A DNA stretch of 64,000 bases, from positions 1-64,000 of the forward strand of contig CACIXF010000001.1 of NCBI GenBank assembly GCA_902590535.1, in the 5' to 3' direction. The stretch's first letter is position 1. Every line of letters begins with the position of its first letter. The notes under the pieces are model-generated. The model searched no databases. It saw only the letters and a list, made by a program, of their open reading frames with translations, and was not told the DNA's origin. Source of the DNA: an uncultured Pelagibacteraceae bacterium (GTDB lineage Bacteria > Pseudomonadota > Alphaproteobacteria > Pelagibacterales > Pelagibacteraceae). Made by a program: the position numbers and the translations under genes. Shown in pieces: positions 23,503 through 39,892 of this stretch.

Positions 23503-23505
23503 GTA

Positions 23506-23524
23506 AGGGGAGGTCTGTTTCCCT
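23506..23524. terminator. Possible weak bidirectional terminator
   Basis: Between the convergent stops of ppdK and the methyltransferase gene there is an imperfect hairpin, AGGGGA...TTCCCT with a 7-nt loop and wobble pairs. A short T-rich run follows on one side. This G-rich patch stands out in the local AT-rich DNA, but its predicted stability is modest. Confidence 0.35.
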
Positions 23525-23531
23525 CTATAGT

Positions 23532-24374
23532 TTAATTTTCATTTTTATATGCAATTGCCCTAATTTCATATTGGTCATAAATTGTTTTTACTGACTCAAT
23601 GTGAATTTTTTCAAAATTATTATCCATCAATAATTTTTTTAAAGATTCTTTAGAAAATAAAATATGATGACCAATACCAAAAACATCATGAGTAATATTT
23701 TTAATATATTGAAAATTTTCACTCGAAGGAACGATAAGATAAATACATCCTCCATTTTTGAGATTAAAATATGCATCTTTTAAAAATTTTTTTGGAAAAT
23801 CTGTATGTTCAAGTACATCTGATGAAACGATTAAATTAAACTTGATGCTATTAAATGTATTTTTATCATAAAAATCATTTATTATTTGTATCGCTCCACT
23901 TTTTCTAGAGGACAAATTTGCAAACAATTCATTAGGCTCAACCCCATAGCACTTTGTATTAGGAAGCATTTCTTTAATTTTTTTAATTAATACTCCACCA
24001 CCACATCCAATATCGAGAATGTTTATCTCTTCGACTGAGTAGTTTCTTTTTTTATTTTTTAAAAAATAATCAACTTTTTCAAAATTAAGTGATTTATCAT
24101 TACTGTAATTACTTATTCTGTCAAAATATGCATCTGGTGTCTCTTTGCGAAAAGCAAAACTTCTATAATTTTTTTTATAAAATGTTTCTTGTTCTTTTTC
24201 ATCTAATTTTGGTGATCTATAAGCAATGTAACAATTTTTACATTGGTACCAAATTCTTTCAATTTCATTTAATTTTGGATTTATAATATTTAAAACTTCA
24301 CAAATATATTTTTGTATTTGAAGAATTAAAGTTTCTTTAGACTTGCAAATTGGGCATTCATCAACTTTGATCAT
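23532..24374 (-). CDS. Zinc-finger class I SAM-dependent methyltransferase
   Basis: The 280 aa protein starts with a treble-clef-like zinc element (CPICKSKE near residue 8 and CKNC near residue 46). A Rossmann methyltransferase domain follows, with motif I ILDIGCGGGVLIKKI near residue 122 and a post-I acidic strand YGVEPN. The LIVSSDVLEHTDFPKKFL segment is typical of Methyltransf_11/23 families. Such Cys-bearing methyltransferases are common in surface-glycan clusters. It stands alone between ppdK and the tmRNA, at the edge of the accessory island. Substrate unknown. Confidence 0.8.
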   Translation of the reverse strand: MIKVDECPICKSKETLILQIQKYICEVLNIINPKLNEIERIWYQCKNCYIAYRSPKLDEKEQETFYKKNYRSFAFRKETPDAYFDRISNYSNDKSLNFEKVDYFLKNKKRNYSVEEINILDIGCGGGVLIKKIKEMLPNTKCYGVEPNELFANLSSRKSGAIQIINDFYDKNTFNSIKFNLIVSSDVLEHTDFPKKFLKDAYFNLKNGGCIYLIVPSSENFQYIKNITHDVFGIGHHILFSKESLKKLLMDNNFEKIHIESVKTIYDQYEIRAIAYKNEN

Positions 24375-24440
24375 TTAATAAACTACTTTATTTTTATATT
24401 AGATATATTTAATTTGTTGATAATACAATTTTAAACAAAG

Positions 24441-24479
24441 TTCATAAAAATAGTGAAGTGGCATAACGGATTATGCCAC
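24441..24479 (-). terminator. Intrinsic terminator of the tmRNA gene
   Basis: On the minus strand a perfect 9-bp hairpin, GTGGCATAA-TCCG-TTATGCCAC, occupies 24458-24479. It is followed by an A/T stretch containing five consecutive T (TTCACTATTTTTATG). It lies immediately downstream of the coding half of the tmRNA, so it is well placed to end that transcript. Confidence 0.75.
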
Positions 24480-24480
24480 T

Positions 24481-24740
24481 CCTGAAGCGTTCTGTTGCCA
24501 GGTGCCCAGACCCCGTTTGCTTAATTAACTAGGTTAATTAGGCAGCAAGTGCGTAACTTTCGTTAGCAATTATAAAATAGCCCGTTACGGTGGAACAATC
24601 CCGAACGAAAGAATAGCCTTTAGTCACCCGTCGAATCTAGTTCACCCCCATAAGTCTTGATGGTGGAGGTGGTGGGTACCGCCCCCACGTCCGCAATGGT
24701 TATTCCGAAATTCATTTATCGTCATAGTTGGAAAACCAAC
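24481..24740 (-). ncRNA. ssrA: tmRNA (ssrA), circularly permuted two-piece form
   Basis: tmRNA rescues stalled ribosomes by adding a degradation tag. On the minus strand the 3' half comes first. The acceptor piece runs from about 24722-24740 to 24661 and ends CACCTCC-A-CCA after a T-arm GTGGG/CCCAC. An 11-nt spacer follows (24660-24650). The coding piece then starts at 24649 with GGGGGTGAACTAGATTCGAC, the conserved tmRNA 5' end. GGGGGTG pairs with CACCTCC to rebuild the acceptor stem, and GGCTATTC pairs with GAATAACC as helix P2. The 5' boundary and the 3' end of the coding piece (about 24481) are estimates. Permuted two-piece tmRNA is known in alphaproteobacteria. Confidence 0.92.
24538..24567 (-). 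other. tmRNA tag reading frame (ANESYALAA-stop)
   Basis: Within the coding piece, codons GCT AAC GAA AGT TAC GCA CTT GCT GCC are followed by TAA. They give the encoded tag ANESYALAA. The terminal YALAA matches the E. coli tag (ANDENYALAA), but the tag is one residue shorter. The first GCT is taken as the resume codon by analogy. A hairpin TTAACCTAGTTAA follows the stop codon, as in other tmRNAs. Confidence 0.88.
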
Positions 24741-24746
24741 ATCATT

Positions 24747-24775
24747 AATATAATAATATTATCCTTAACAAACAA
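24747..24775 (-). promoter_or_regulatory. Candidate sigma-70 promoter for ssrA
   Basis: Reading leftwards, TTGTTT (24775-24770) and TATATT (24752-24747) are separated by exactly 17 bp. A start about 7 bp downstream falls near 24740. That is the first base of a small hairpin (GTTGG-AAAA-CCAAC, 24727-24740) preceding the acceptor piece. The position and spacing are good. The AT-rich background makes chance matches common. Confidence 0.45.
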
Positions 24776-25045
24776 TATTTTTATTAAAAAAAACATTTTT
24801 AATACTAGAGATTTTTTCTGGTTTATTTGAAATAAATTTACTTAGTTCTTAGTATAAAAGTTTATTAAATAATTACTCATAAGAGGAATTAAATATCAGT
24901 TTATCTTTTAGACACCTAACAATGGAGAAAATTGTTTTAATTTTTTTATGGAAAAAGCTAATTATATAGAATGATAGCGTTTAACTATAAAAAATAATTT
25001 GTAAAACTTAATTTAAATTCTATTATTTTTGTGTATTAATCATAC
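24776..25045. other. Non-coding AT-rich stretch
   Basis: About 270 bp lie between the ssrA promoter and the DUF4956 gene. I see no open reading frame with coding character, no RNA fold that I recognise and no strong inverted repeat. It presumably carries the promoter for the three-gene rightward operon beginning at 25046, but no single -10/-35 pair stands out. Confidence 0.5.
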
Positions 25046-25717
25046 ATGGAAAATTTATTAAATAATTATCAAAATTTAGGAGAGATAAATTATTTAACTA
25101 CTTTATTAAGTTTTATATTATGTATATTATCTGCATTAGTTCTTAGGCATATCTATAAAATTAAAAGTAATTCTCTTACAGGAAAATACCACATAGGTTC
25201 TATAATACCTCTTTTAGCTTTAACAACATTTTTAGTAATTTCTGTAGTTAAATCATCGTTAGCTTTATCTTTAGGTCTGGTTGGCGCCCTATCAGTTATA
25301 AGATTTAGAACACCAATTAAGGAACCAGAAGAATTAGTTTATCTTTTTTTATCAATTTCTATAGGGCTTGGTTATGGATCAGGACAATTTTTATTAACAT
25401 TACTCTGTTTTATCATTATAATTTTCTGTATCTATTTTATTTTTAACAAAGAAAGAAAATCCAAAACAAATGATTTTAATTTATCTTTTGTTTGGAAAGA
25501 CAAATCAATTAAAAGTACACAAATAATTAATGATCTGAAGGAAGTTATACAGGAAATAGATTTAATTAAGTTTGATCATGAAGAAAATGGGACATACACA
25601 CTATTTTTAAATATAGTAATAACAGATATAGCACAAATTGAGCAGATCGAAAAAAAGTTTAGCAACTATCCAGATAATTTAAGCTTTAGTTTTTATGAGG
25701 CAAAAATTTTATCTTAA
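25046..25717 (+). CDS. DUF4956 family membrane protein
   Basis: This 223 aa protein has about four hydrophobic helices in residues 15-135 and a soluble C-terminal domain of about 80 residues. The family hallmark GLVGALSVIRFRTPIKEPEE is present (about residues 76-95), followed by YLFLSISIGLGYGSGQ. The biochemical function of DUF4956 is not established. It regularly travels with CotH-kinase and VTC-domain genes, exactly as here: the next gene starts 4 bp after its stop and the VTC gene follows. It is probably the membrane partner of that module. Confidence 0.88.
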   Translation: MENLLNNYQNLGEINYLTTLLSFILCILSALVLRHIYKIKSNSLTGKYHIGSIIPLLALTTFLVISVVKSSLALSLGLVGALSVIRFRTPIKEPEELVYLFLSISIGLGYGSGQFLLTLLCFIIIIFCIYFIFNKERKSKTNDFNLSFVWKDKSIKSTQIINDLKEVIQEIDLIKFDHEENGTYTLFLNIVITDIAQIEQIEKKFSNYPDNLSFSFYEAKILS

Positions 25718-25721
25718 TTAA

Positions 25722-28448
25722 ATGAAAATTAAGAGAAAAATAGATAGTAAATTATTTTTTTTATTAATTGTAATTTTTTTTTTTTTTACATTCTTTTTTA
25801 TAAGTTATTCAAATTTTTTAACCAATTCTAAACAAACAATTTTAATTTTTTCCAAAGAACCATTTTTAGATAAAGAAAATTCTTTTGAAGAAATAAAATA
25901 TATGCCAAATTTAGTTTTCAATAAATTTAATAAAAATAAGAAATTTAATAAATTATTTATCCAAGTAGATTTTGAAGATTTATTAAAATTAAAAAAAGAT
26001 AGGTCAGAAGCAATAAAAAGAAAAGTTTTGTTAAATAATATACAATATGTTAATGCAAAAATTATTTTTAAAGATGAAGAATATGATGCAAAAATAAAAC
26101 TTAAAGGAAGTTTATCTACACATTGGGAAAATTCTAAACAGTGGAGTTTTAAAATCACTTTAGAAAATGGTTATACTATTTTAGGTATGAGAGAATTTTC
26201 TTTAACCAAACATTCAGAAAGAGCATATCCAGCAAATCAAATTATGTCAGATTTTTTAAGAAAGCTAAAAATATATACTCCAGAATATTTTACTTTTGCA
26301 GTAGATTTTAATGGTTTGGATTGGGGTATAATGCTTGCGGAAGAGCAAATTTCAAGCACTTATCATGAAAAGAGAAAATTAAAAGACTCTGTCGTTTTAA
26401 GACTACAAACTCAAGACAGATTTTTAAGCGATCAAATTAACTTTTATAATTTAAATATTTCAGAAAAAGAAAATAGGGCTCTCAATTATTTTTTTGATAA
26501 GAGAGTGAGATTGTATAATCAAAGAAAATATCTCTTTAACTCATTCAATTCAAATTTTAATCACAATAAAAATCTAGAATCATTATTAAATCAGATAAAA
26601 TCTGAAAAACCGCTTGAAGACTATATAGATATAAAAAAAATTATAACTACTTTTACGTTATCTCTAGTTTGGCAAGAGTATCATTCGATGCATAGTTTTC
26701 AATCAAGATACTATTTAAACCCTTTCACTTCTAAATTGGAAATAATACCTTTAGATTTTGGATATGGTTCAAATAATGAGAACGAAAACTATCTTAACAA
26801 TTATGAAATTTTTTATAATCATATAAAAGATAATCATTTTTTAAAAGAATCAATATTACATGATGATTTTGAAAAATATTTTTACGAAAATCTTGTTTAT
26901 ATTAAAAATAACTTTGATGAATTTCATTTTCTTTTAAAAAAATATTGCAAAGGCTTTTCGAACCATTGTGGTGAAAAAATTAAACTAAATCATTATTATA
27001 CACATTTAGATTTTTTAATAAAAAATTATAAAAAAGTTGTTATTCACTTGAAAGAAAATTTATCAAAGGAGGAAATAATAAATTTTGAAGCAATTAATAA
27101 TGTAAATGAAGATAAATTATTTAAATTTATTAATTTTAATAATTCTTTTATTGATGCAAAAAATTACAATAACGAATATTTAGAAATAATAAATTTATCT
27201 CCTTTTGAGTTAAATATTGTGGATCTTGATTTAATAGAAAGGCATGAGGATAAAATAGTTAAATTTAAACTTTCTAAAAATATAAAAATAGAAAGCAGTG
27301 ATTTAAATGAAGTTAAAAAATTTAAAATTAAAATTAATGAATTTGATAATAACGAAAATTTTAAATTAAATAATTACAAGCAATATCAATTATTAATTAA
27401 ATATAAAATTAAAAATATTGAAAAAAAATATTTAAAAAATATTTATCCTATATTTAACAAAAATTTTATTGAATTTTCAAATAACCACAATTTTATTAAA
27501 AAAAAGGATGAGAATTTTATTATTGAGTCTGGGGAATGGGTCGTTAATTATCCAATTATAATTTCAAATGATAAAAATTTAATTATTGAAAAAAATACAA
27601 AACTTAAATTTTCAGATAATAGCTATTTACTTATAGATGGTGGTTCTCTAATTACTAAAGGAGAAAAAAATAATGAGGTTCTTCTTACTTCTAAAAATAA
27701 AATTTGGAAGGGTATTTATATTAATAATTATAATAATTCAGATAATTTAACTAAACTTAGCTATACAACAATTCAAAACGCTGGATATTTCGAGAATAAC
27801 AAAACATCATTAACAGGGTCTGTTAATTTTTATAGATCTAATATTGTAATTGAAAATTCACAATTTATAGAAAATCAGTCAGAAGATGCATTGAATATAA
27901 CAGAGAGCAATTTAAAAATGACAAATACTGAATTTAAAAATATTTCTTCAGATGCTTTTGACTCTGATTTTTCTAAGGTGGTTATCAACAATGTAAGATT
28001 TGCTGGTATTAATGGAGATGCAATTGATACATCAGGATCTAATGTTAAAATAAGAAATGTAATTACATATAATGTAGGTGATAAATCATTATCTGCAGGT
28101 GAAGGAAGTATTGTAGAGGCGCAGAAATTAGAATTCACTAATTCTAGAATTGGTATAGCTACCAAAGATAGTAGCGAGGTGATTATAAATGAATGTAAGA
28201 TATTAAACTCCTCTGTTGCTGATATAATAAGTTATAGAAAAAAACACTTATATTCCTACGGTAAAATTTTTTTAAAAAATTCAGAAATTGATTCTGAGAA
28301 AGTTTTTTATGAAAATCAAAATGCAATTAAATTTGAAGATGAAAAATTTATTTTCCAGAAATTAAAAAATTTTAAACTTATTAAAAAAAAAAAATATCCT
28401 AATTTTTTTGATAATTATATACAAAGTATGAAAAAAAATGAGATATGA
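25722..28448 (+). CDS. CotH-kinase domain protein fused to a right-handed beta-helix
   Basis: A 908 aa envelope protein anchored by an N-terminal hydrophobic segment (about residues 11-30). Residues about 85-370 look like a CotH domain, an atypical kinase fold. Visible are KLKGSLSTHWENSKQWSFK, a MREFSLTKHSERAYPANQI core, FNGLDWGIMLAEEQIS, and the metal-binding PLDFGYG element. A Lys/Asn-rich middle is followed at about 600-860 by repeated short rungs (for example IENSQFIENQSEDALNI, VVINNVRFAGINGDAID) typical of a parallel beta-helix. It overlaps the VTC gene by 11 bp. Substrate unknown; CotH phosphorylates spore-coat protein in Bacillus, but this is not evidence for the role here. Confidence 0.85.
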   Translation: MKIKRKIDSKLFFLLIVIFFFFTFFFISYSNFLTNSKQTILIFSKEPFLDKENSFEEIKYMPNLVFNKFNKNKKFNKLFIQVDFEDLLKLKKDRSEAIKRKVLLNNIQYVNAKIIFKDEEYDAKIKLKGSLSTHWENSKQWSFKITLENGYTILGMREFSLTKHSERAYPANQIMSDFLRKLKIYTPEYFTFAVDFNGLDWGIMLAEEQISSTYHEKRKLKDSVVLRLQTQDRFLSDQINFYNLNISEKENRALNYFFDKRVRLYNQRKYLFNSFNSNFNHNKNLESLLNQIKSEKPLEDYIDIKKIITTFTLSLVWQEYHSMHSFQSRYYLNPFTSKLEIIPLDFGYGSNNENENYLNNYEIFYNHIKDNHFLKESILHDDFEKYFYENLVYIKNNFDEFHFLLKKYCKGFSNHCGEKIKLNHYYTHLDFLIKNYKKVVIHLKENLSKEEIINFEAINNVNEDKLFKFINFNNSFIDAKNYNNEYLEIINLSPFELNIVDLDLIERHEDKIVKFKLSKNIKIESSDLNEVKKFKIKINEFDNNENFKLNNYKQYQLLIKYKIKNIEKKYLKNIYPIFNKNFIEFSNNHNFIKKKDENFIIESGEWVVNYPIIISNDKNLIIEKNTKLKFSDNSYLLIDGGSLITKGEKNNEVLLTSKNKIWKGIYINNYNNSDNLTKLSYTTIQNAGYFENNKTSLTGSVNFYRSNIVIENSQFIENQSEDALNITESNLKMTNTEFKNISSDAFDSDFSKVVINNVRFAGINGDAIDTSGSNVKIRNVITYNVGDKSLSAGEGSIVEAQKLEFTNSRIGIATKDSSEVIINECKILNSSVADIISYRKKHLYSYGKIFLKNSEIDSEKVFYENQNAIKFEDEKFIFQKLKNFKLIKKKKYPNFFDNYIQSMKKNEI

Positions 28449-29109
28449 GTTAAAATTTAAGTTTAATGAACTTGATTTGTCCAAATTTAAAATTTGGTCA
28501 AGTTCTAAAAAAAATTTAAAAAAAATATATTATAAAAGAATTATTCATAATATTTATTATGATGATGCTAATTTTAATTCAGCTATGGATAATATTATTG
28601 GTTTACCCAACAGGGAAAAATATAGATTGAGGTGGTATGAGGATTTTAATCATAATCTTTCTAAGCCTTTATTTGAGATAAAAATTAAAAAAAATCGTCT
28701 CAATTTTAAAGAAACATTTTATACAAATGATGACTTTAAATACTCGAATTTTAACGATGTTTTTAGTAAAAAATATTCTTTTAAAGTTAAAAACAATGAA
28801 AAAAAATCAATTAATTTAAATAAATTTCACAGAGTATTAAATCCAGTATTAAAAAATAATTATACAAGAGAATATTTTTCGTATAAAAATAAAGTCAGAC
28901 TTACTTTAGATCAGCCTTGTGTATACACTGAAATTTCAAAAAATAATTTCATTAAGTATTTTTTGAAATTTTATATATTAGAATTAAAATTTGAACCTGA
29001 AATGCTAAATTATGCTAAAGAACTAACATGTGATATGCCATTTAATTTTTCTAGATTTAGCAAATATATTCATGGTTTATATATTTTAAAAAAATTAAGT
29101 TTCTATTGA
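28438..29109 (+). CDS. VTC-domain protein (polyphosphate polymerase-like tunnel enzyme)
   Basis: The 223 aa make up one VTC/CYTH-like triphosphate tunnel domain, related to the catalytic domain of the yeast polyphosphate polymerase Vtc4. The tunnel residues come in the expected order: YELKF at the N terminus, YYDD, KYRLRWYED, LFEIKIKKNR, YTREYF, RLTLDQP and a C-terminal LELKFE. All basic and acidic positions seem intact, so it may be active. The overlap with the CotH gene shows they are translated together. Whether it makes polyphosphate or another phosphorylated polymer is not known for bacterial members in this context. Confidence 0.87.
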   Translation: MRYELKFKFNELDLSKFKIWSSSKKNLKKIYYKRIIHNIYYDDANFNSAMDNIIGLPNREKYRLRWYEDFNHNLSKPLFEIKIKKNRLNFKETFYTNDDFKYSNFNDVFSKKYSFKVKNNEKKSINLNKFHRVLNPVLKNNYTREYFSYKNKVRLTLDQPCVYTEISKNNFIKYFLKFYILELKFEPEMLNYAKELTCDMPFNFSRFSKYIHGLYILKKLSFY

Positions 29110-30008
29110 TTTAAATTATAAATCTTTGAAAAATTACCAAAAATTTTTTCTGATATAATTTTAGAACCCTTTACATTTAAATGAACTTTTTTATTAAATA
29201 AATAATAACTATCATCTAAACTAAGATTACTTAAGTCAATAATATGCAAGTATTCATAATTAAATTCATTTAATAATTTTCTCAATTTTTGTTTTTGAAA
29301 ATTAAAAAGAGAATTTTTATTATCAGGTTGTATTATTACAAAAATTTCAACATCCTCAGAAATTAAAAAGTTTAGTGTTTTTTTAAATTCATTGATATAA
29401 TATTTATCAAGCTTTGCCTCAAATTTTTCAAAATCAATTTTTTTGTTTTTAATTTTCTTGTCAAAACATGATTTATTATCTTTTGCATTAAGTAATCTTA
29501 GATTAATATCGGTGACAGACTCAAATTTATCAATAATATAATCATCTATACTCGGTAAATAATTAAAATATTTAAATAATATACTCTGGCCTCGTTTAGA
29601 ATGTTTATATTCGTTTAATAGATTGCAATCAGTATAACCACTTGAAATAACTGCAATATCATAATTAAGATACTGATATTTTTTTACATCTGATTTAACT
29701 CCATTAATCCCATTTCCTTGTAAAGCTAAGTTCACAACATCGAAATTAAATTTTTTTATTTTTTTTTCAAATAAATATGGGATACTTTCATAATACTTCA
29801 ATCCCCAACCCATTAGAGCACTACTTCCAAGAAATACTATTCTTCTTTGATTATCTATTTTATTTGTTTTGATTTCACCCCTGTATCCCTTGTGATTCCA
29901 ACCATTATAAAGCTTGTTCATTTTTTTACCTACCAAGTAATCAGCCAAAAAAAGCAAAATAAGAAAAATAAAGAATGAAATAATTAATTGCTTTAAAATA
30001 TTAATCAT
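29103..30008 (-). CDS. SGNH/GDSL-type membrane-anchored protein (DltD/AlgX-like role)
   Basis: The 301 aa protein has one N-terminal membrane helix (about residues 7-27) and then an SGNH-hydrolase-like domain presumably in the periplasm. Block I is VFLGSSALMGWG (about 58-69), with the nucleophile in GSS. A block III-like SSGYTDCN follows, and a C-terminal KKVHLNVKGSK supplies the catalytic-His context. It is the last gene of a leftward ligase-carrier-MBOAT operon and overlaps the MBOAT gene by 8 bp. That is the place and type of DltD in Dlt systems, where it takes part in the final acyl transfer. Family assignment is by motif and context only. Confidence 0.75.
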   Translation of the reverse strand: MINILKQLIISFFIFLILLFLADYLVGKKMNKLYNGWNHKGYRGEIKTNKIDNQRRIVFLGSSALMGWGLKYYESIPYLFEKKIKKFNFDVVNLALQGNGINGVKSDVKKYQYLNYDIAVISSGYTDCNLLNEYKHSKRGQSILFKYFNYLPSIDDYIIDKFESVTDINLRLLNAKDNKSCFDKKIKNKKIDFEKFEAKLDKYYINEFKKTLNFLISEDVEIFVIIQPDNKNSLFNFQKQKLRKLLNEFNYEYLHIIDLSNLSLDDSYYLFNKKVHLNVKGSKIISEKIFGNFSKIYNLNQ

Positions 30009-31317
30009 TTTTTTTAAATTTTGTAATTAAGTAGTTGGTATTATTAAAACCGAAAATTATCAAAAGTGATATAACTAAAATTAAGATTGAAAAATGATAT
30101 TCTAAAGAAATTAATTGAATAGTATTAATTTTAGTTAAGTCAAACATTGAATTTATCATAAATATCGCATCTTTAATACTTTCGCTTCTAAAAAAAATGA
30201 AACTTAAATTTACAAAATTAAAAGTAATGAAAATTAAAAAAATTTTATTTAATTTAAATTTAATATACTTTCTATATATATGATTTAGGATTAAACCAAA
30301 TCCATGCAAAGCACCAAAAATTATATAATTCCATGAGGGACCATGCCAAAGACCTGCGATTAAAAAGGTTACTAAGATTAAAAACATAGATTTAAAAAAA
30401 GTAATTTTTTTTAAAGCTCTTAACATTGGAAAATATACAAAATTCATAAGGAAATTTGATAATGTAATATGCCATCTCTGCCAAAATTCTATAATTGATC
30501 TTGATTTATAAGGGCTATCAAAATTCACAGGTAAATTTATACCAAACAATAAAGCAATACCTGTTGCCATATCTATATATCCACTAAAATCAAAATAAAT
30601 TTGTATTGTAAAAGCTATTGAACCTATCCAGGCATCTAGCGGATTTAATGAATTGTTACTATTAAATATGGGTTCTACTAAAATTGATAAATTATCTCCT
30701 ATAAAAACTTTTTTAAACATACCAATCAAAAATATTACTAATCCGATTAAAATATATTTTTTTAAGGTATCAATTTTTTTATCTTCTGAAAATTGAGGCA
30801 TCATTTTATCGTATTGAACTATTGGTCCTGCAATAAGTTGAGGGAAAAAAATTATAAATAAGAAATAATTTTTAAATTTAATTTTATCAATTACACCATC
30901 GTAACAATTGACTAGAAAATTAATACTTTGAAAAGTTACAAAACTTAAAGCCAAAGGAAATGGAAAATTAGTCATTGGAATTCCTAGAGTAAAGATAGAA
31001 TTTAAATTTAAAATTATAAAATCGGTATACTTTAAAAATATTAAATAGATTGTATTAAACAATATAGAATATATAAGATTTATCTTCTTACTCTTTGTCG
31101 AAACGCTATTTAATATTTGTGTAGAAAAATAGAAATTAACTAAAATTGATATTATAATTATTGGCGTTAAGATAAAATTCCAATATGAATAAAAAATAAT
31201 ACCTGATAAAATTAACACATATTTAGTTGATATTTTGGTAAATTTTTTAATTAAAAAAAATATTAGTAATACCATAGGAAGAAAAATAAAAATAAATTCC
31301 TGACTATGGAAAAGCAT
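30001..31317 (-). CDS. MBOAT-family O-acyltransferase (DltB/AlgI-like)
   Basis: A 438 aa polytopic membrane protein with roughly ten hydrophobic segments. MBOAT landmarks are visible: FPQLIAGPIVQYDKMMPQF (about residues 155-173), the FDFSGYIDMATGIALLFGI block, SIIEFWQRWHITLSNFL, and the invariant His in AGLWHGPSWNYIIFGALHG (His325). This arrangement matches the DltB/AlgI branch, which passes acyl groups across the membrane to envelope polymers. It sits between the carrier-protein gene (3 bp away) and the SGNH gene. The acceptor polymer is unknown. Confidence 0.93.
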   Translation of the reverse strand: MLFHSQEFIFIFLPMVLLIFFLIKKFTKISTKYVLILSGIIFYSYWNFILTPIIIISILVNFYFSTQILNSVSTKSKKINLIYSILFNTIYLIFLKYTDFIILNLNSIFTLGIPMTNFPFPLALSFVTFQSINFLVNCYDGVIDKIKFKNYFLFIIFFPQLIAGPIVQYDKMMPQFSEDKKIDTLKKYILIGLVIFLIGMFKKVFIGDNLSILVEPIFNSNNSLNPLDAWIGSIAFTIQIYFDFSGYIDMATGIALLFGINLPVNFDSPYKSRSIIEFWQRWHITLSNFLMNFVYFPMLRALKKITFFKSMFLILVTFLIAGLWHGPSWNYIIFGALHGFGLILNHIYRKYIKFKLNKIFLIFITFNFVNLSFIFFRSESIKDAIFMINSMFDLTKINTIQLISLEYHFSILILVISLLIIFGFNNTNYLITKFKKND

Positions 31318-31320
31318 TTA

Positions 31321-31542
31321 TTAAAAATATTTAATCAAATTTTTGATTGATTTGAGGTTATTAATTTCACTTGTCTTTACTTTTTTATTAAAAATTTTTT
31401 CTAAAGAAATAATAATATTAATTTGAGCTAGACTATCCCATTTTAAACAGTTATCTGAGTTTGTGTTAAGATCTATCTCATTAGTTTGTAAACTCAAAAC
31501 CTTAGAAACTGCATCTATAATTTTTTTTTCTTTAACATCCAT
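31321..31542 (-). CDS. Acyl carrier protein (DltC-like)
   Basis: A 73 aa four-helix carrier. The phosphopantetheine attachment site is WDSLAQ with Ser37, and the helix pattern LEKIFNKKVKTSEI follows. It is not the housekeeping AcpP, whose motif is usually DSLD and which lies with fab genes. Here the gene lies between the AMP-ligase (no gap) and the MBOAT gene. This position suggests that the ligase loads it and that the MBOAT discharges it, the role of DltC in teichoic-acid D-alanylation. Confidence 0.9.
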   Translation of the reverse strand: MDVKEKKIIDAVSKVLSLQTNEIDLNTNSDNCLKWDSLAQINIIISLEKIFNKKVKTSEINNLKSIKNLIKYF

Positions 31543-33252
31543 CTAAGAACCTTTTAAAAAATCATCTATTAAATGTCTATTTTTTAGTGTAGATAAATCT
31601 CCATAATTGGACCTGTGAGTTCCATCTATGATATTTCTTAACAATCTTCTCATAATTTTTCCACTTTTAGTTTTTGGTAATTCCCTTACGTAATGAATTT
31701 TTTTGGGAAGTGCATATGTACCAAAGTTTTTAAAAATTTGTTTATTTATCTGCTTATCCATTTTTTTCATAGATACAACAAATAGATGAATTTCTGATCC
31801 TTCAATATCATTATCTTTAGCTACTGCAGAGCATTCATTTACATTGTTTAATTGAAGTATGATTGACTCAATTTCTTCACATCCAATTCTCTTTCCTCTC
31901 AAGTTTATAACATCATCGTTTCTTCCATGAATGAAAATATTTTCATTTTTGATGGTAGCTAAATCGAACATTCGAAAATATCCTTTTTTATCCCAATAAT
32001 TACTCCACATTTTATTTCCATTTAGTAATCTTTTCATACATCCTGGCCAAATATTTTTGATTTTAAATTCCTTTTTTTTTAATTTGTCTAGTTTTAGTAT
32101 TTTAATATGCTTATTTACAGGTCTACCAGCTGATCCATGAGGTATTTTTTTTGTTTTATCATCAAATTTTGGTGAAGATATTATTCCTCCATTTTCTGTT
32201 TGATAATATGCATTCACTATACAATTGTTTTCACTCGTAAAAATTGAAGAAAACCATCTTGCTATTGATGGTGCAATATGTTCTCCCATTGATCCTAATG
32301 TTTTTAAGTGTTTGGTTTGAAATTTTGATTTTTTGTTAAATAAGCTTTTCATAACTCTAATTAGCGTAACTGGTAAATATAAAATTGATACTTTCATGTT
32401 TAAAATTTTTTTTAAGAATTTTTCATCTAATAAAACCATTGGATCCTCTACTAAAATAGTCGTTGCTCCAAAAGAAAGTGGCCCAAACAATGCATAGTTA
32501 TGGCCGTTTAGCCATCCAGCATCACTAGCAGTTAGTACAATTGAATTTTTATTCATACCAAATTGGCTTTTAGAAGTATATTTTGTATAGAACAAAAACC
32601 CACCTATAGAATGAACTACTCCTTTAGGAGCCCCAGTAGATCCCGAAGTAAAAAGTGCAAAAAAGTCTTTATTTGCTTCATAGATATAATCATTATGATA
32701 TTTAATTTTTGTTTTTTTTCTTAAGTTTATATTTTCGAATAACAAAATATCTTTCTTATTAAAATTTGTTTTAAAAATTTTATTTCTGTCTGTAGAGAGA
32801 ATTAAGTTAGGTTTAAATAATTTAATTCTTTTATTGATGGCTTCTGCTTCTAAATCTTTGTAGATAACACAAAAAAAAATACCTAATTTTAAACAAGTTA
32901 GCATAGAAATTGCACTTTCAATTCCAGATGAAGCATGAATTAATATTTTTGAGTTAAATGGTTTTTGCTTTAATTTTGAAATTAATCTTAAAGATAAAAA
33001 ATTAACCATTTCATCTATCTCTTTATAACTATAAGAACTTATTTCTTTGTTTTTTTTTATTACGATAATACTTTTCTTGCTTGGGAAACTTTTAAGGTTT
33101 TTTCCAATAATATTTTCATAGGCATTAATTTTTGCGCCAGGGAATATCTTGAAGTAATTATTTTTTAATTTTTTGTAGAATTTTTTTGGTTTAATTCTCC
33201 AACTTAATATCTTTGAATTTTCAATCCAGTATTTATCTGTATTTTTGTTCAT
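31543..33252 (-). CDS. AMP-forming acyl ligase, acetyl/acetoacetyl-CoA synthetase-like (DltA-like role)
   Basis: ANL-superfamily adenylating enzyme of 569 aa. An N-terminal FPGAKINAYEN (about 37-47) is typical of the acetyl-/acetoacetyl-CoA synthetase branch. The P-loop LFTSGSTGAPKG ends at 211. Later come the Asp-hinge region GRNDDVINLRGKRIG and the catalytic Lys532 in LPKTKSGKIMRR. Next to a dedicated carrier protein, it probably charges that carrier with a small carboxylic acid instead of making free acyl-CoA. The sequence class argues against D-alanine as substrate. A plain acyl-CoA synthetase role cannot be excluded. Confidence 0.8.
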   Translation of the reverse strand: MNKNTDKYWIENSKILSWRIKPKKFYKKLKNNYFKIFPGAKINAYENIIGKNLKSFPSKKSIIVIKKNKEISSYSYKEIDEMVNFLSLRLISKLKQKPFNSKILIHASSGIESAISMLTCLKLGIFFCVIYKDLEAEAINKRIKLFKPNLILSTDRNKIFKTNFNKKDILLFENINLRKKTKIKYHNDYIYEANKDFFALFTSGSTGAPKGVVHSIGGFLFYTKYTSKSQFGMNKNSIVLTASDAGWLNGHNYALFGPLSFGATTILVEDPMVLLDEKFLKKILNMKVSILYLPVTLIRVMKSLFNKKSKFQTKHLKTLGSMGEHIAPSIARWFSSIFTSENNCIVNAYYQTENGGIISSPKFDDKTKKIPHGSAGRPVNKHIKILKLDKLKKKEFKIKNIWPGCMKRLLNGNKMWSNYWDKKGYFRMFDLATIKNENIFIHGRNDDVINLRGKRIGCEEIESIILQLNNVNECSAVAKDNDIEGSEIHLFVVSMKKMDKQINKQIFKNFGTYALPKKIHYVRELPKTKSGKIMRRLLRNIIDGTHRSNYGDLSTLKNRHLIDDFLKGS

Positions 33253-33307
33253 TTAAACTTTATAATTGCAATATATTTAAAAGTATAATATTCAAAAAAA
33301 AATTGTC

Positions 33308-33457
33308 ATGAAATTTCTATTATATTTATTAAATTTTGTAAAAACTAAAGGAATTTTGAATTATGCAATAATTATATTGGTTTTTTTTATAATTTTTGTA
33401 TCCATAATTTTTTTTACTATTTTTTTTGGAAACCCTTTTATTTATTTTGACTTCTAA
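33308..33457 (+). CDS. DltX/DUF5989-like membrane microprotein
   Basis: A 49-codon ORF, ATG to TAA. It begins MKFLLYLLNFVKTKG and has one membrane helix at about residues 18-40. It ends FFGNPFIYFDF, with Tyr46 and a terminal Phe49. Basic residues before the helix predict an N-in topology with the C terminus in the periplasm. The ending resembles the C-terminal FIYxxF signature of DltX, the microprotein at the head of Gram-positive dlt operons. It also resembles DUF5989 proteins found with other surface-glycan genes. It lies 55 bp from the ligase start, divergently. No clear Shine-Dalgarno is visible. Such a short AT-rich ORF could be chance; the motif and location argue otherwise. Confidence 0.6.
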   Translation: MKFLLYLLNFVKTKGILNYAIIILVFFIIFVSIIFFTIFFGNPFIYFDF

Positions 33458-33485
33458 TCTTACTTATTTATTTGAAAATGGAATA

Positions 33486-33517
33486 ACTTACATGTAAGTG
33501 TAATAATGAAATATATA
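33486..33517 (+). promoter_or_regulatory. Palindrome overlapping a candidate thyX promoter
   Basis: ACTTACATGTAAGT at 33486-33499 is a perfect 14-bp palindrome. It overlaps a possible -35 element TTACAT (33488-33493). Eighteen bp further on is TATATA (33512-33517), whose predicted start point coincides with the thyX ATG at 33524. The layout suggests an operator over the -35 region. Confidence 0.4.
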
Positions 33518-33523
33518 TAAACA

Positions 33524-34471
33524 ATGAAACTTACTAAAGAACAATCAGAAGAAATAAAAAATCAGCAATCTCAAAAAAATTATACAAAAAGAGCTATAGC
33601 ACCAGAGCTTGAAAAAATACTTTATGAGGCAATACCTGCATTAGACCATGGTTTTGTTAGAGTGGTGGATTATATGGGAGATGACACTTCTATAGTTCAA
33701 TCAGCAAGAGTTTCTTATGGCAAAGGTACCAAACAGGTTTCAACTGACAAAGGTTTAATTAGATATTTAATGAGGCATTGGCACAGCACTCCATTTGAAA
33801 TGTGTGAAATAAAATATCACATAAAACTTCCTATATTTATAGCAAGGCAATGGATTAGACATAGAACTGCTAATGTAAATGAATATTCTGCTAGATATTC
33901 AATTTTAGATAAAGAGTTTTATTTGCCATCAACTAAAAATTTAGCAGCACAATCTACTAGCAATAGACAAGGTAGAGGAGAAGTTTTAGAGGGATCACAG
34001 GCTGAAGAAGTTCTAAAACTTCTAAAAAATGATGCTGAAAGAACCTATAAAAATTACGAGACAATGTTGAATGAGAAATATGATGGATCTACAATCGATA
34101 AAAATAGAAAAGGCTTAGCAAGGGAACTTGCAAGAATGAATTTGACTCTTAATACCTATACTCAATGGTATTGGAAAACTGACCTTTTAAATTTGATGAA
34201 TTTTTTGAGATTAAGAGCTGATACCCATGCACAATATGAGATAAGAGTTTATGCAGATATAATGTTAGATACTTTAAAAAAATGGGTTCCAACTACTTTT
34301 GATGCATTTATGGATTATAGAGTTGGTGGTACTGAAGTTTCTTCTAAGGGAAAAATTATTATTCAAAAATTAATTAATGGTGAGAGAATATCTCTTGAGG
34401 AGTCGGGGCTTTCAAAAAGAGAATGGAATGAATTAATGTTTTCTTTTAATTTAAAAGACTATTTACAGTAA
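33524..34471 (+). CDS. thyX: FAD-dependent thymidylate synthase ThyX
   Basis: ThyX methylates dUMP using methylenetetrahydrofolate, with FAD and NADPH. The signature [15 protein letters not shown] (about residues 109-123) is the ThyX motif RHRxxSxNxxSxR with Ala in place of the first Ser. [10 protein letters not shown] and the C-terminal [17 protein letters not shown] are also typical. At 315 aa it is longer than many ThyX (about 220-250), through an N-terminal extension of about 30 residues and C-terminal additions. It is a housekeeping gene embedded in the surface-glycan island. Confidence 0.95.
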
Positions 34472-34487
34472 TTTTCTAATAAAATTC

Positions 34488-35060
34488 ATGAAAAAAATAT
34501 TAATACTTGGTGCTAATGGAGATTTAGCACAAGCTTTAATTAAAAATTTAAACAAATCTATATTTAAAATTTATAAATTAAAAAAAAAAAATATAAATTT
34601 TTTTAATATTAATTCAAAAACAAAATTATTTTATTACCTTCAAAAAAATAAACCAGATATAATTATAAACTGCATTGGTTTATTGGAAGATAATAAAGGA
34701 GATTTTACAAAAATTTTCAAAGCTAATTTGTATCCTTCATGGCTTTTGGTAAACTATTTTATTAAAAATAAAAATTTAAAGGTAAAAATAATATTAGTTG
34801 GTTCAAGCTCATTTAATAAACCTAGGAAAAATTATATATTATATACTGCAGCCAAAACTGCACTTAATAATTTATACAAAAGTGCAAAAGATTTTTTTAA
34901 AGAAACAAAAGTAAATTTTTATATCATCAATCCTCCTGCAATGAATAGTAGAATGAGGTTAAAATCTCAAAAATTTTCTAGTATTAAAAAGAATTTTGAT
35001 TTAGGTATTAATGTTGAAATAATTGCAAAAGAGATTTTAGATAAGTTTAAAATTCGTTAA
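34488..35060 (+). CDS. Short-chain dehydrogenase/reductase-like protein
   Basis: A 190 aa SDR with an N-terminal cofactor loop ILILGANGDLAQALI (GxxGxxx type), NCIGLLEDNKG in the strand-4 region, and the catalytic pair in YTAAKTALNNL (YxxxK, Tyr near residue 122). It is shorter than usual for either extended or classical SDRs (about 250 or more). It may be a compact ketoreductase acting on a sugar nucleotide, given the following cupin and methyltransferase genes. The exact reaction is unknown. Confidence 0.72.
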   Translation: MKKILILGANGDLAQALIKNLNKSIFKIYKLKKKNINFFNINSKTKLFYYLQKNKPDIIINCIGLLEDNKGDFTKIFKANLYPSWLLVNYFIKNKNLKVKIILVGSSSFNKPRKNYILYTAAKTALNNLYKSAKDFFKETKVNFYIINPPAMNSRMRLKSQKFSSIKKNFDLGINVEIIAKEILDKFKIR

Positions 35061-35084
35061 TATATTAATTTAAAATTTATTATT

Positions 35085-35489
35085 ATGAATAAAATATTTT
35101 CAAAAATAAAAAAAAAAACACTTCTTCATATAATTTCAAGATCAATACCAAAAAACTCTAAAAGACTTGATTTAACTGAACATGAGATGAGTTTACAAGT
35201 AAGTAGAATTAATTTAAAGAATAGTTTTGTAAAACCACATTTTAATAATAAAATAAAGCTAAATTCAGGATTAAATATTCAAAATGAATGTTGGATAGTT
35301 CTTAGTGGCAAAATAAGTGTTACTCTTTTTGATATTGATAAATCAAAAATAAAAAACTTAACACTTTCTAAAGGTGAAATTTTAATAACATATAGCGGAG
35401 GTCATTCTATTAATGAAGCCACAAATAGTTCAGAGATAATAGAATTAAAATTAGGCCCATACAAAAAAAAAAGTTTATCTTATTTCTAA
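35085..35489 (+). CDS. Cupin-like protein
   Basis: A 134 aa protein whose C-terminal half (about residues 45-125) reads as one cupin barrel: ECWIVLSGKISVTLFDID, then LTLSKGEILITYSGGHS with a possible metal or substrate His. The first 40 residues are Lys-rich and unrecognised. The context of sugar genes suggests a role in sugar-nucleotide handling or regulation. The metal-binding HxH pattern of the next cupin is not seen here. Function not assigned. Confidence 0.55.
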   Translation: MNKIFSKIKKKTLLHIISRSIPKNSKRLDLTEHEMSLQVSRINLKNSFVKPHFNNKIKLNSGLNIQNECWIVLSGKISVTLFDIDKSKIKNLTLSKGEILITYSGGHSINEATNSSEIIELKLGPYKKKSLSYF

Positions 35490-35495
35490 CGAAAC

Positions 35496-36704
35496 ATGAT
35501 TAGAAAAAAATGTTTAATATGTGACTCTTTAAATTTAAATGATATTATTGACTTAGGTATACATCCCTTTGCAGATACGTTTATTTCAAAATCAAAACTT
35601 CATTTAACAGAAAAAACTTACCCTTTAATTGTTCAGCTTTGCGACGAGTGTGGAGCCACCCAACTTAAATATGTAACTGAGCCTGAAGACAGATATCAAG
35701 ATTACGAATATTCCTATACTTCCTCAAATTCTGATTATTCTAAAAGTTACTGGTTAAAATACGCAAACTATATTTTAAAAAATTTTTCAATTAAAGAAAA
35801 ATTGAAAATACTCGAGATTGGTTCAAATGATGGTTATTTGTTGAGTATATTAAAAAAATATAACCACGAGGTTCTTGGTGTAGACGCTTCACCAAAAATG
35901 AATGAATTATCTATGAAAAATAATATTAATTCTAAGCTTGGAGTATTCAATGAAAAAATCAGCCAAGAAATTTTAAATGAGTTTGGTAAATTTGATCTAA
36001 TAATTGCAAATAATGTACTTAATCATTCAGATGATCCTAAAATTTTTTTTAAAGGTGTTTCTAAATTAATGAAAAATTCTGGGAAATTTATTTTTGAAAG
36101 TCCATATTGGCTTACTTCTATTCAATCAGGAAAATTTGATCAAATTTATCATGAGCATGTGACTTACTTGAATGCAAAATGGGTAAAAAAAATTTCTCAT
36201 ATATTCGAATTATTTATTACAAAAATTGAACTGACAGAGTATCACGGTGGATCAATCAGATTTATTTTATCAAAAACAGAGGATAAAGATGACAATAATA
36301 GAATAGATAAATTTATCTATAATGAAAATAAGATTGGATTATATTCACACTTATTTTATAAAAAATTTGTTAATAATTTATATAAAAATAGAAGTGTTTT
36401 TATGGAGAAATTGATTGATAATAATTCACCTTTAATATGTATTGGCGCAGCAGCTAAAGCTAATACATTTTTAAATTTTTATGGCTTAAACAATAAAATG
36501 GTAAACTTTGTGACAGATGCTTCACCATTAAAAATAGGCAAATTTACTCCTTTAACACGTATAGAGATTGTTAAAGACGAAATAATAAAGAATTATAAAA
36601 AACCAAAGATTATTTTTACAGCCTGGAATGTATCTGATAATTTAAAAAAATTAATTTTTAAACTAAATAATAATTATGAAGAGTTGAAGCCGTATGGAAA
36701 TTAA
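35496..36704 (+). CDS. Zinc-finger sugar C-methyltransferase (TylC3/Methyltransf_13-11-14 type)
   Basis: A 402 aa three-domain methyltransferase. It has an N-terminal zinc site (CLICDSLNLNDIIDLG, then CDECGATQL with four Cys in all), a SAM-binding core with motif I ILEIGSNDGYLLSIL near residue 112, and a C-terminal substrate domain with GAAAKANTFLNFYGL and the late VTDASPLKIGKF element. This matches NDP-hexose C-methyltransferases and related enzymes of deoxysugar pathways. It overlaps the downstream cupin by 11 bp, so both probably act on the same sugar nucleotide. Confidence 0.87.
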   Translation: MIRKKCLICDSLNLNDIIDLGIHPFADTFISKSKLHLTEKTYPLIVQLCDECGATQLKYVTEPEDRYQDYEYSYTSSNSDYSKSYWLKYANYILKNFSIKEKLKILEIGSNDGYLLSILKKYNHEVLGVDASPKMNELSMKNNINSKLGVFNEKISQEILNEFGKFDLIIANNVLNHSDDPKIFFKGVSKLMKNSGKFIFESPYWLTSIQSGKFDQIYHEHVTYLNAKWVKKISHIFELFITKIELTEYHGGSIRFILSKTEDKDDNNRIDKFIYNENKIGLYSHLFYKKFVNNLYKNRSVFMEKLIDNNSPLICIGAAAKANTFLNFYGLNNKMVNFVTDASPLKIGKFTPLTRIEIVKDEIIKNYKKPKIIFTAWNVSDNLKKLIFKLNNNYEELKPYGN

Positions 36705-37080
36705 AAAAATTAATGTTGCATTTTCTGATGATAGAGGAACAATTTCTGATATTTTTTATAAATCAAATATCGAGCATGTTGCAATAATTAAAACTAATGA
36801 TAATGGAAGAATAATTAGAGGCAATCATTATCATAAACAAACTACTCAACATATTTTTATGACAAAGGGAAGTTTAATTTATTGGTATCGAAATCAAGAT
36901 GATAATTCTCCAGTAAAAAATATTAAAGTAGAGGAGGGATATATGGTTTCGACACCGCCTCTAGAAATACATGCACTTGAGTGTTTGGAGTATAGCGAAT
37001 TTATTGTTTTTTCAACGGGTTTGAGAGGTGGTATTGATTACGAGGCTGATACTTTTAGAGATAAAATTATTTTAAAATAA
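36694..37080 (+). CDS. WxcM/RmlC-like cupin, probable sugar-nucleotide isomerase or epimerase
   Basis: A 128 aa single cupin. Conserved elements are DDRGTISDIF at the N terminus, the IIRGNHYHKQTTQHIFM strand with the metal/catalytic His pair, and STPPLEIHALECLEYSEFIVFS. It resembles WxcM-like and FdtA-type domains that act on NDP-4-keto-6-deoxyhexoses. Coupled to the methyltransferase by overlapping genes. The exact stereochemical reaction is not predictable. Confidence 0.75.
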   Translation: MEIKKINVAFSDDRGTISDIFYKSNIEHVAIIKTNDNGRIIRGNHYHKQTTQHIFMTKGSLIYWYRNQDDNSPVKNIKVEEGYMVSTPPLEIHALECLEYSEFIVFSTGLRGGIDYEADTFRDKIILK

Positions 37081-37088
37081 TTATTGAT

Positions 37089-38057
37089 TTAAAGAGATTT
37101 TAAAAAGTGCTCTAAGATTTCATCAACCATACTTTCAAATGTATATTCAGGTTTCCATCCCAAAATTTTTCTTGCTTTAGATGAGTCTCCACATAAAAAA
37201 GATAATTCTTCAGGTCTTATAAACTTTTTGTTTACTTTAACATAATCCCTATAATTCATATCCAGTTTAGAAAATATTAATTTACAGAAATCTCTAATAG
37301 AATGAGTTTTTCCGGTTGAAATTATAAAATCGTCCGGCTTTTCATGATTTAAGATTAAATGCATTGCTTTTACGTAATCTTTTGAGTGCCCCCAATCTCT
37401 TTGTGAGTCCAAATTACCTAATTCTAAATGACTCATTTCACCCCTTTTTATTTGAACTGCAGTTTTAATTATTTTTGTAGTTACAAAGTTCGTTGCTCTC
37501 CTAGGTGATTCATGATTAAATAGAATTCCATTGGATGCGAATAATTTGAATGCATTTCTATAATTTCTTATTAAGCTATATGAAAATAATTTTGCACAAC
37601 CGTAAGGGCTTACTGGATGCATTGGAGTTGTTTCTCTTTGCATACCATCATCGTCACACGAATTTCCAAACATCTCAGATGAGCTTGCTTGATAAATTTT
37701 TGCATTTGGACAATGCATTTTTACTGCCTCTAAAAGATTCACTACTCCCAAAGCATTAGTCTGAACTGTAAATTGAGGTATTTCATAACTTACTCTCACA
37801 TGACTTTGAGCTGCTAAATTATATATTTCATCAGGGTTGCTATTTTTTAAAATTTTATCAATTGAACTAGTGTCTAATAAGTCTCCATAAGTAAGATTAA
37901 TTTTTCCTCTTAGTTTTTCAATTCTAGATTCCTGATTTTCGGTAACAGAATTTCTTCTAACAATGCCATATACTTCATAACCTAAATTTAATAAATGCTC
38001 AGCCAAATAAGACCCATCTTGACCTGTTATACCTGTTATTAAAGCTCTTTTAGTCAT
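37089..38057 (-). CDS. gmd: GDP-mannose 4,6-dehydratase
   Basis: Gmd makes GDP-4-keto-6-deoxymannose, the precursor of GDP-fucose, GDP-rhamnose and GDP-perosamine. The cofactor loop is TGITGQDGSYLAEHLL at the N terminus, with YGIVRRNS for NADP. SSSEMFGNS and the catalytic YGCAKLFSYSL (YxxxK) follow, and later NFVTTKIIK and DSQRDWGHSKDYVKAM complete the Gmd pattern. At 322 aa it is a little short but contains all the motifs. It faces the cupin gene convergently and lies 53 bp from the fucosyltransferase-like gene, same strand. Confidence 0.93.
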   Translation of the reverse strand: MTKRALITGITGQDGSYLAEHLLNLGYEVYGIVRRNSVTENQESRIEKLRGKINLTYGDLLDTSSIDKILKNSNPDEIYNLAAQSHVRVSYEIPQFTVQTNALGVVNLLEAVKMHCPNAKIYQASSSEMFGNSCDDDGMQRETTPMHPVSPYGCAKLFSYSLIRNYRNAFKLFASNGILFNHESPRRATNFVTTKIIKTAVQIKRGEMSHLELGNLDSQRDWGHSKDYVKAMHLILNHEKPDDFIISTGKTHSIRDFCKLIFSKLDMNYRDYVKVNKKFIRPEELSFLCGDSSKARKILGWKPEYTFESMVDEILEHFLKSL

Positions 38058-38110
38058 TGTTTATGTTTGATTACACCAATTAAAATAAAATTTCTACAAG
38101 TTGTAACAAT

Positions 38111-39016: not shown

Positions 39017-39023
39017 TTAAGAT

Positions 39024-39848: not shown

Positions 39849-39862
39849 AAAAGTATCATTAC

Positions 39863-39892
39863 TTGTTTTTTGTAATAAAGACACTATATACT
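39863..39892 (+). promoter_or_regulatory. Candidate hflK promoter
   Basis: TTGTTT (39863-39868) and TATACT (39887-39892) are spaced by 18 bp. The predicted transcript start is at or one base before the hflK ATG at 39900, which would make the mRNA leaderless. It overlaps the 5' end of the divergent mrp gene. Confidence 0.4.

Follow-up and report, generated by a model that had tools for sequence, protein, structure and literature searches.

The 64,000-nucleotide stretch analysed here (hereafter the window), from contig CACIXF010000001.1 of an uncultured Pelagibacteraceae bacterium, carries a cassette of five genes whose products fall into the functional classes of DltA, DltC, DltB, DltD and DltX. 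The host belongs to the SAR11 lineage. The cassette is real and recurrent: in a Gram-negative bacterium, it unites a carrier protein and a membrane-bound O-acyltransferase (MBOAT) with a ligase derived from acetyl-CoA synthetase (ACS) and a separate shuttle-type microprotein, an arrangement from which we infer its mechanism. The genes are as follows, each with the letter of the Dlt component whose role it would take:

29103-30008, minus strand: membrane-anchored SGNH-fold protein of 301 residues ('D' role), with Ser63 in GxS and with His276; the Asp of DxxH is replaced (NKKVH)
30001-31317, minus strand: short MBOAT of 438 residues ('B' role), with the predicted catalytic His325 (GLWHG) and lacking the C-terminal extension that bears a fused hexapeptide
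31321-31542, minus strand: acyl carrier protein (ACP) of 73 residues ('C' role), with the predicted phosphopantetheine Ser37 in WDSL
31543-33252, minus strand: AMP-forming ligase of the ACS branch, 569 residues ('A' role), which keeps the catalytic TSGSTG and C-terminal Lys (PKTKSGK) and does not keep the CoA-contact pattern of Acs
33308-33457, plus strand: single-helix microprotein of 49 residues ('X' role), divergent from the ligase and ending in FIYFDF, a predicted acyl shuttle at Tyr46

These open reading frames (ORFs) lie where the initial annotation had placed them, and the functional classes and the order A-C-B-D that it had assigned were borne out by the Pfam and NCBIfam matches, the gene layout and a structure model of the SGNH protein. 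Ligase and ACP genes are 0 bp apart, 3 bp separate ACP and MBOAT, and MBOAT and SGNH overlap by 8 bp; the microprotein ORF, on the opposite strand, begins 55 bp upstream of the ligase. Pfam search assigned AMP-binding to the ligase (1.3e-40), PP-binding to the carrier (3.6e-07) and MBOAT to the acyltransferase (3.7e-26), and gave no match for the SGNH protein. The best NCBIfam models were acetate-CoA ligase (5.7e-99 and 2.2e-98) for the ligase and DltB (2.4e-52) for the MBOAT, all under the curated cut-offs. Ser37 of the carrier and His325 of the MBOAT, singled out by the initial annotation, occupy conserved positions in the alignments, where both numbers are one lower with the first Met omitted. 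Promoter-like sites were no commoner than chance (71 vs 82.1).

Separate microprotein and short MBOAT

The microprotein has one strongly hydrophobic stretch, together with the size and the FXYXXF end of a Dlt microprotein. According to a 2025 account (PMC12148441), this acyl-shuttle hexapeptide forms the C-terminus of DltX in Dlt and is fused to the MBOAT in PatA and others; the Tyr of the PatA hexapeptide is acetylated, with DltX named as precedent. Counterparts of 49 residues occupy the same divergent place in genomes G001 and G434, ending in WIYSIF and FLYFNF, respectively; all three microproteins start 54-85 bp from the ligase start on the opposite strand, in agreement with the DltX-like microprotein proposed initially. 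The FxYxxF end of the window microprotein is more than chance. An exact end occurs in two of 713 ORFs of 30-90 residues from the window and seven other SAR11 stretches, namely the microproteins of the window and G434, and ORFs of at least 30 residues with such an end arose in 3 of 3000 Markov resamples of the 271-bp intergenic stretch.

Comparison of 21 MBOATs revealed 14 that end in F[IL]YxxF as a fused hexapeptide, one that ends in SIYGRF and six with no such end. A separate microprotein is present in five of the six loci without a fused end: the window, G001, G434 and two annotated Lactobacillaceae dlt operons, in both of which DltB lacks the hexapeptide and the dltX product ends in FIYNEF. 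Pattern search found no microprotein in the unannotated dlt-like plasmid locus L070. Seven non-Dlt plasmid MBOATs also end in F[IL]YxxF. Within the first loci read, no separate microprotein was seen beside the fused MBOATs; wider stretches around them contain three small ORFs whose ends loosely resemble the motif, including an exact FxYxxF on a 35-residue ORF 3.3 kb from the G181 MBOAT, and all three are taken as chance.

The likeness of the microprotein to DltX appears to be one of motif, size and context, and not of sequence family, since the Pfam DltX model PF12459 matched two annotated DltX proteins (7e-16 and 1.8e-20) and neither the window nor the G434 microprotein at E<=1, and since the G001 microprotein is a member of DUF5989 (PF19451, 1.6e-11). 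The NCBIfam search gave no DltX-type match even for a true DltX and therefore has no power in this respect. The window microprotein has no DUF5989 match in Pfam.

DUF5989 microproteins (L010:10342-10491; loci L023-L052) were also surveyed by pattern, and have FIYTLF-type hexapeptide ends in 29 of the 30 loci read. The start of a carbamoyltransferase was recognized by its N-terminal pattern in 25 of the 30 other DUF5989 loci and by Pfam in one more, with an SxtJ protein where checked; no MBOAT occurs in these 30 loci within flanks of at most 1.5 kb. These microproteins may act as shuttles in a system that transfers carbamoyl or other groups. The literature searched contains no mention of DUF5989.

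The window MBOAT ends in KFKKND, with no fused hexapeptide, and the three short MBOATs (window, G001 and G434) all lack the C-terminal extension present on seven other SAR11 MBOATs. Its predicted structure, with a predicted local distance difference test score (pLDDT) of 86.8, has DltB as the best fold, with a Z-score of 32.2 over 369 residues compared to 25.8 for the next family. DltB is also the best NCBIfam match, at 178 bits against a cut-off of 375. In the MBOAT tree, the three short proteins group at 100/99 and are nested among SAR11 MBOATs with moderate support; a clade uniting them with three DltB-type rows was not rejected by the approximately unbiased (AU) test (p-AU 0.484).

A loop reading LGG[NS] is found in nine of the 21 MBOATs, none of which has a carrier gene in the stretch read. 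All eight MBOATs with a carrier gene in the stretch read lack this loop, as do four more with no carrier seen. Loop loss as a mark of every carrier-fed MBOAT fails as a two-way rule on account of the latter: the closely related G156, G173 and G181 have no carrier gene in 19.5-kb stretches, and no carrier was seen in 14.6 kb around the G275b MBOAT, where an FkbH gene lies 1.2 kb past an SGNH-size neighbour, at the contig end.

Possible carrier-fed systems were noted at two further places. On a plasmid of Rhodobacteraceae SC52 (L064:2781-7634), a carrier gene and an FkbH gene adjoin an MBOAT with a fused hexapeptide, and in SAR11 genome G275 an FkbH gene lies near an MBOAT (L083:8974-14550). The G275 MBOAT at C1:310231 (L059; L083:8974-10462) has three stop codons within the matched stretch and looks broken.

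Ligase and its carrier

The ligase scores 330 bits with the ACS hidden Markov model of NCBIfam, compared to 97-112 bits with the DltA models, whose cut-offs are 476-560; its initial placement in the ACS branch is thereby upheld. In the ligase tree, seven clade members form a clade at 100/100, and two DltAs split off at 100/100 from this clade, the ACSs and the other host ligases; the branching order among the remaining rows is poorly resolved. Among the matches listed in phage and plasmid searches, identity to the ligase is at most 31%, and the annotated ones are acetate-CoA ligases or acetyl-CoA synthetases.

The CoA-contact residues F163-G164-G165, Arg191 and Arg584 are present in Salmonella Acs; in Acs, the two arginines touch the CoA phosphates (PMC10455477). 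Nine clade ligases were aligned with the Salmonella enzyme and with four other host homologues (C2, C6, C7 and C13). In all nine (Acs numbering), G164/G165 are replaced by charged residues, position 191 is not Arg (Lys in two), position 584 is not Arg (Lys in two others), and Pro and Arg stand at 357 and 523, respectively; the checked catalytic positions are retained. The region around 191 is gap-rich, and the exact residue pairing there varies between two alignments. F-G-G, Arg191, Ala357, Ser523 and Arg584 are all retained in C6, the closest ACS homologue in the host; C2 retains FGG and Arg584, with part of the CoA-contact set absent. Compared to Acs, which has 64 residues from position 186 to 250, the window ligase has only 34, with a range of 34-58 across the clade. 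The loss of the CoA-contact pattern, combined with the adjoining carrier gene, favours the carrier as acyl acceptor and argues for, though does not prove, a ligase that loads its own carrier rather than CoA.

The acetate pocket V310-T311-V386-W413-W414 of Acs reads Ile/Leu/Met, Asn, Met, Tyr and Tyr/Phe in the clade ligases. The clade Asn, within an ACS-like GWxNGH, aligns with the Asp of DltA 'SFDLSVM', which binds the amino group; an Asn at the same place in DhbE binds the 2-hydroxyl. A small hydroxy acid is therefore a guess at the substrate.

Relatives of the ligase were found in 3 of 150 relatives at E<=1e-80. At 1e-70, they were present in 5 of 397 genomes at the level of the order, in 1 of 385 at that of the class and in 1 of 398 at that of the phylum; with a G001 query at 1e-100, they were present in 5 of 201 genomes of the genus. 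The counts include the window's own genome, the samples overlap and many genomes are incomplete; nine distinct genomes are represented in all. A profile search of genome contigs with the ligase alignment returned two loci only, on contigs of G001 and G042. A carrier gene adjoins the ligase in seven of the nine loci: the window, G001, G042, G434, G355, G259 (divergent) and G1218. The window carrier matches the DltC model of NCBIfam only weakly (0.041). In G322 no carrier adjoins the ligase; one weak carrier-like ORF lies 8.4 kb off and a KAS III gene is near. The G1201 locus is cut by the contig end.

An MBOAT gene adjoins the ligase-carrier pair in four of the nine loci. Three of them (window, G001 and G434) share the ligase-ACP-MBOAT order, with gaps near zero, and the divergent 49-residue microprotein; identity to the window ligase is 56% for the ligase of G001 and 50% for that of G434. 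In the fourth, G042, the pair adjoins a diverged MBOAT with a fused motif (FIYFNF), and the contig start truncates the ligase at its N-terminus, so that a separate microprotein may still exist there. Elsewhere the neighbours are of other kinds, with an AT3-SGNH protein across thyX from the pair in G1218, and a 225-residue gene with a weak GDSL match (0.018) and an ABC transporter in G259. The ligase-carrier pair, found with an MBOAT in four of nine loci and with other neighbours elsewhere, therefore looks like a donor module with several partners. In G355 (L020:9065-15642), it adjoins a radical SAM/B12 protein and a thiamine pyrophosphate enzyme, another setting for the same donor module.

Proposed acyl relay and its alternatives

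We consider it probable that the cassette encodes a carrier-fed machine of the MBOAT/SGNH type for acylation at the cell envelope, in which an acid would travel by way of the carrier, the MBOAT, the microprotein Tyr and the SGNH Ser to an envelope polymer. Judging from its residues and gene adjacency, the ligase would adenylate a small carboxylic acid with ATP and load the phosphopantetheine of its own carrier, not CoA. Family and fold suggest that the short MBOAT may accept the acyl group at the cytoplasmic face from the carrier, via His325, and pass it to Tyr46 of FIYFDF. By analogy with DltX/DltD and PatA/PatB, the acyl-tyrosine would then be handed to Ser63 of the periplasmic SGNH protein and on to a hydroxyl of the envelope polymer. 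As the group transferred, a small non-amino acid of C2-C4 is most likely, perhaps a 2-hydroxy acid (glycolate or lactate, for example), with acetate as the null alternative.

A broader proposal is more doubtful and offered tentatively: carrier-fed MBOAT/SGNH acylation might be a modular Gram-negative class beyond Dlt, in which SAR11 turned an ACS into a carrier-loader for a small 2-hydroxy acid and uses a separate microprotein shuttle, arisen independently of DltX or not, and in which FkbH does the loading elsewhere. If so, SAR11 would form glycolyl or lactyl esters on its surface glycans.

The SGNH fold assigned to the D-role protein is supported by its predicted structure. Structural similarity search placed PatB first in Foldseek (3.0e-06), with Z-scores of 13.2 for PatB and up to 15.3 for SGNH esterases; DltD is absent from the rows shown, which excludes nothing. 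The model, built from an alignment of 10 distant rows, supports the N-terminal helix, and Ser63 and His276 are conserved.

Several observations weigh against the proposed relay. The confidence of the SGNH model is modest (pLDDT 64.7), and the protein reads NKKVH in place of DxxH, a loss that the initial annotation had missed; among 11 aligned rows, several of them named from motif and position with no Pfam match, DxxH is kept in nine and DxH occurs in one. The SGNH partner also varies, being a same-strand neighbour in the window, convergent in G001 and an AT3-SGNH fusion directly after the MBOAT in G434. The microprotein lies on the opposite strand from the ligase-carrier-MBOAT-SGNH genes, so that its co-expression with them is only presumed, and the G001 hexapeptide starts with W, in a family (DUF5989) otherwise seen beside carbamoyltransferases without an MBOAT. 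The contacts between DltC and DltB reported in PMC11035591 are kept in part: pairing by hand gives Leu and Ile in the window carrier for DltC Met36 and Val39, but Asn for DltC Glu40 and, in the window MBOAT, Arg and Lys for DltB Ile306 and Met309. Of the four other host homologues, two (C7 and C13) likewise have neither F-G-G nor Arg191 (C7 retains Arg584), so CoA is not excluded merely because the Acs pattern has been lost; some other CoA ligases bind CoA through different residues (PMC10455477). Finally, no MBOAT was found in five of the nine ligase loci (G355, G259, G322, G1218 and G1201), of which G1201, at a contig end, and G355, where part of the stretch reads N, are weak negatives. The initial annotation had held that co-occurrence of ligase and carrier with unrelated genes in other SAR11 genomes would refute its reading; this is partly the case, as pairs do occur where no MBOAT was found, and an MBOAT stands beside the pair in four of nine loci.

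These last points bear on an alternative that we regard as unlikely, in which a CoA-fed O-acetylation machine of the PatAB/AlgI type is made up of the MBOAT, the microprotein and the SGNH protein, and the neighbouring ligase-carrier pair belongs to another pathway or produces an acyl-CoA. The pairs of G355, G259 and G1218 and the two host ligases without the Acs CoA pattern would fit it, as would the MBOAT sequence, which among the rows listed is nearer to non-Dlt bacterial MBOATs (up to 41% identity) than to annotated DltBs (29-31% over 58-59% of the query). However, such a machine would leave unaccounted for the near-zero ligase/carrier/MBOAT gaps in three loci and the pair beside a diverged MBOAT in G042, as well as the absence of LGG[NS] from all eight carrier-associated MBOATs, though the loop is also absent from four with no carrier seen.

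The genomic setting bears on a further alternative. In G082 and G156, the transfer-messenger RNA (tmRNA) gene, thyX and a NUBPL/ParA-type gene (window 39024-39884) adjoin, with nothing large between them. In the window, the tmRNA-thyX interval spans 8.7 kb and holds a DUF4956 gene, a 908-residue gene with no Pfam match and a VTC gene, followed by the cassette; the interval from thyX to 39024 spans 4.5 kb and contains the sugar genes. In G012 a 607-residue gene separates tmRNA from thyX, in G001 thyX is followed by an AT3-SGNH gene, and in G1218 the ligase-carrier pair occupies the same neighbourhood on the other side of tmRNA. The cassette is variable cargo. Synteny gave no sign of the link with the sugar genes at 34.5-39.0 kb that the initial annotation had considered possible: cassette and sugar genes flank thyX, and both are absent there in G082 and G156. 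Partly decayed cargo, in which the SGNH catalytic Asp has been lost and the module no longer transfers acyl groups, would accord with NKKVH in place of DxxH and with a variable insertion absent in G082 and G156, but we judge it quite improbable: none of the five frames is interrupted, Ser63, His276, His325, Ser37 and the hexapeptide have all been kept, and the genes lie close together.

We find it hardly credible that the cassette is a genuine Dlt system adding D-alanine to a polymer of the envelope, whether taken over from Gram-positives or held in common with the dlt genes of Dickeya. Such a reading could draw on DltB as best NCBIfam match and best fold of the MBOAT, on the DltX hexapeptide, on the unrejected clade with DltB-type rows and on dlt genes known in a few Gram-negatives (PMC5541007), but conflicts with the DltA scores far under cut-off, the DltAs set apart in the ligase tree, the Asn in place of the 'SFDLSVM' Asp and the lack of a Pfam DltX match.

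Two observations on the surroundings of the cassette may be added. In Pelagibacterales, the region around tmRNA and thyX (window 23502-39024) is a spot of variable insertion: G082 and G156 have nothing inserted there, and G012, G001 and G1218 carry other cargo. The same insertion as the cassette includes a rightward trio (window 25046-29109) of a DUF4956 protein, the 908-residue protein without a Pfam match and a VTC-domain protein.

Comparison with known systems

The cassette appears to work like Dlt. They share five functional classes, an MBOAT without a fused hexapeptide whose fold is nearest DltB, a separate microprotein of ~50 residues ending in FXYXXF, a carrier and an SGNH protein. By contrast, the cassette ligase is ACS-derived and not a DltA, the microprotein lies on the opposite strand and is unmatched by Pfam DltX, and the host is Gram-negative, in which no teichoic acid is therefore expected. 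Membership in Dlt fails on the ligase and the DltX family, and the reading of the initial annotation is supported in part. A precedent that it did not mention is the occurrence of dlt genes in a few Gram-negatives, e.g. Dickeya and Pectobacterium (PMC5541007).

Acs and its kin are the best sequence relatives of the ligase and share its catalytic residues; however, the cassette ligase lacks the CoA-contact pattern, has a shorter 186-250 segment and differs in the pocket (T311N, V386M, W414Y or F). DUF5989 (PF19451) includes the G001 microprotein and has a similar hexapeptide end, whereas most of its other loci have a carbamoyltransferase start, with no MBOAT found in the flanks read, and the window microprotein does not match it.

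PatA/PatB and relatives (AlgI, WssH) resemble the cassette in the MBOAT and SGNH pair of a Gram-negative and in the acyl-tyrosine hexapeptide, and PatB tops the Foldseek list for the SGNH model. They differ in that PatA has a fused hexapeptide and uses acetyl-CoA, whereas the cassette has a separate microprotein and a contiguous ligase and carrier. The 2025 account describes MBOAT/SGNH pathways other than Dlt as having neither a carrier protein nor a DltX-like microprotein (PMC12148441); both are present in this Gram-negative cassette, whose loading enzyme has a different ancestry. This gene combination is not described in the literature searched, which comprised titles and abstract openings, with most subscription papers outside its coverage. 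Altogether, the cassette points to a strain-variable surface modification in abundant marine bacteria, which may have consequences for phage or predator recognition, and could extend the acids carried by a tyrosine relay past acetate and D-alanine. With G042 on one side and the window, G001 and G434 on the other, nature provides a fused and a separate form of the shuttle peptide for comparison, each next to the same donor module.

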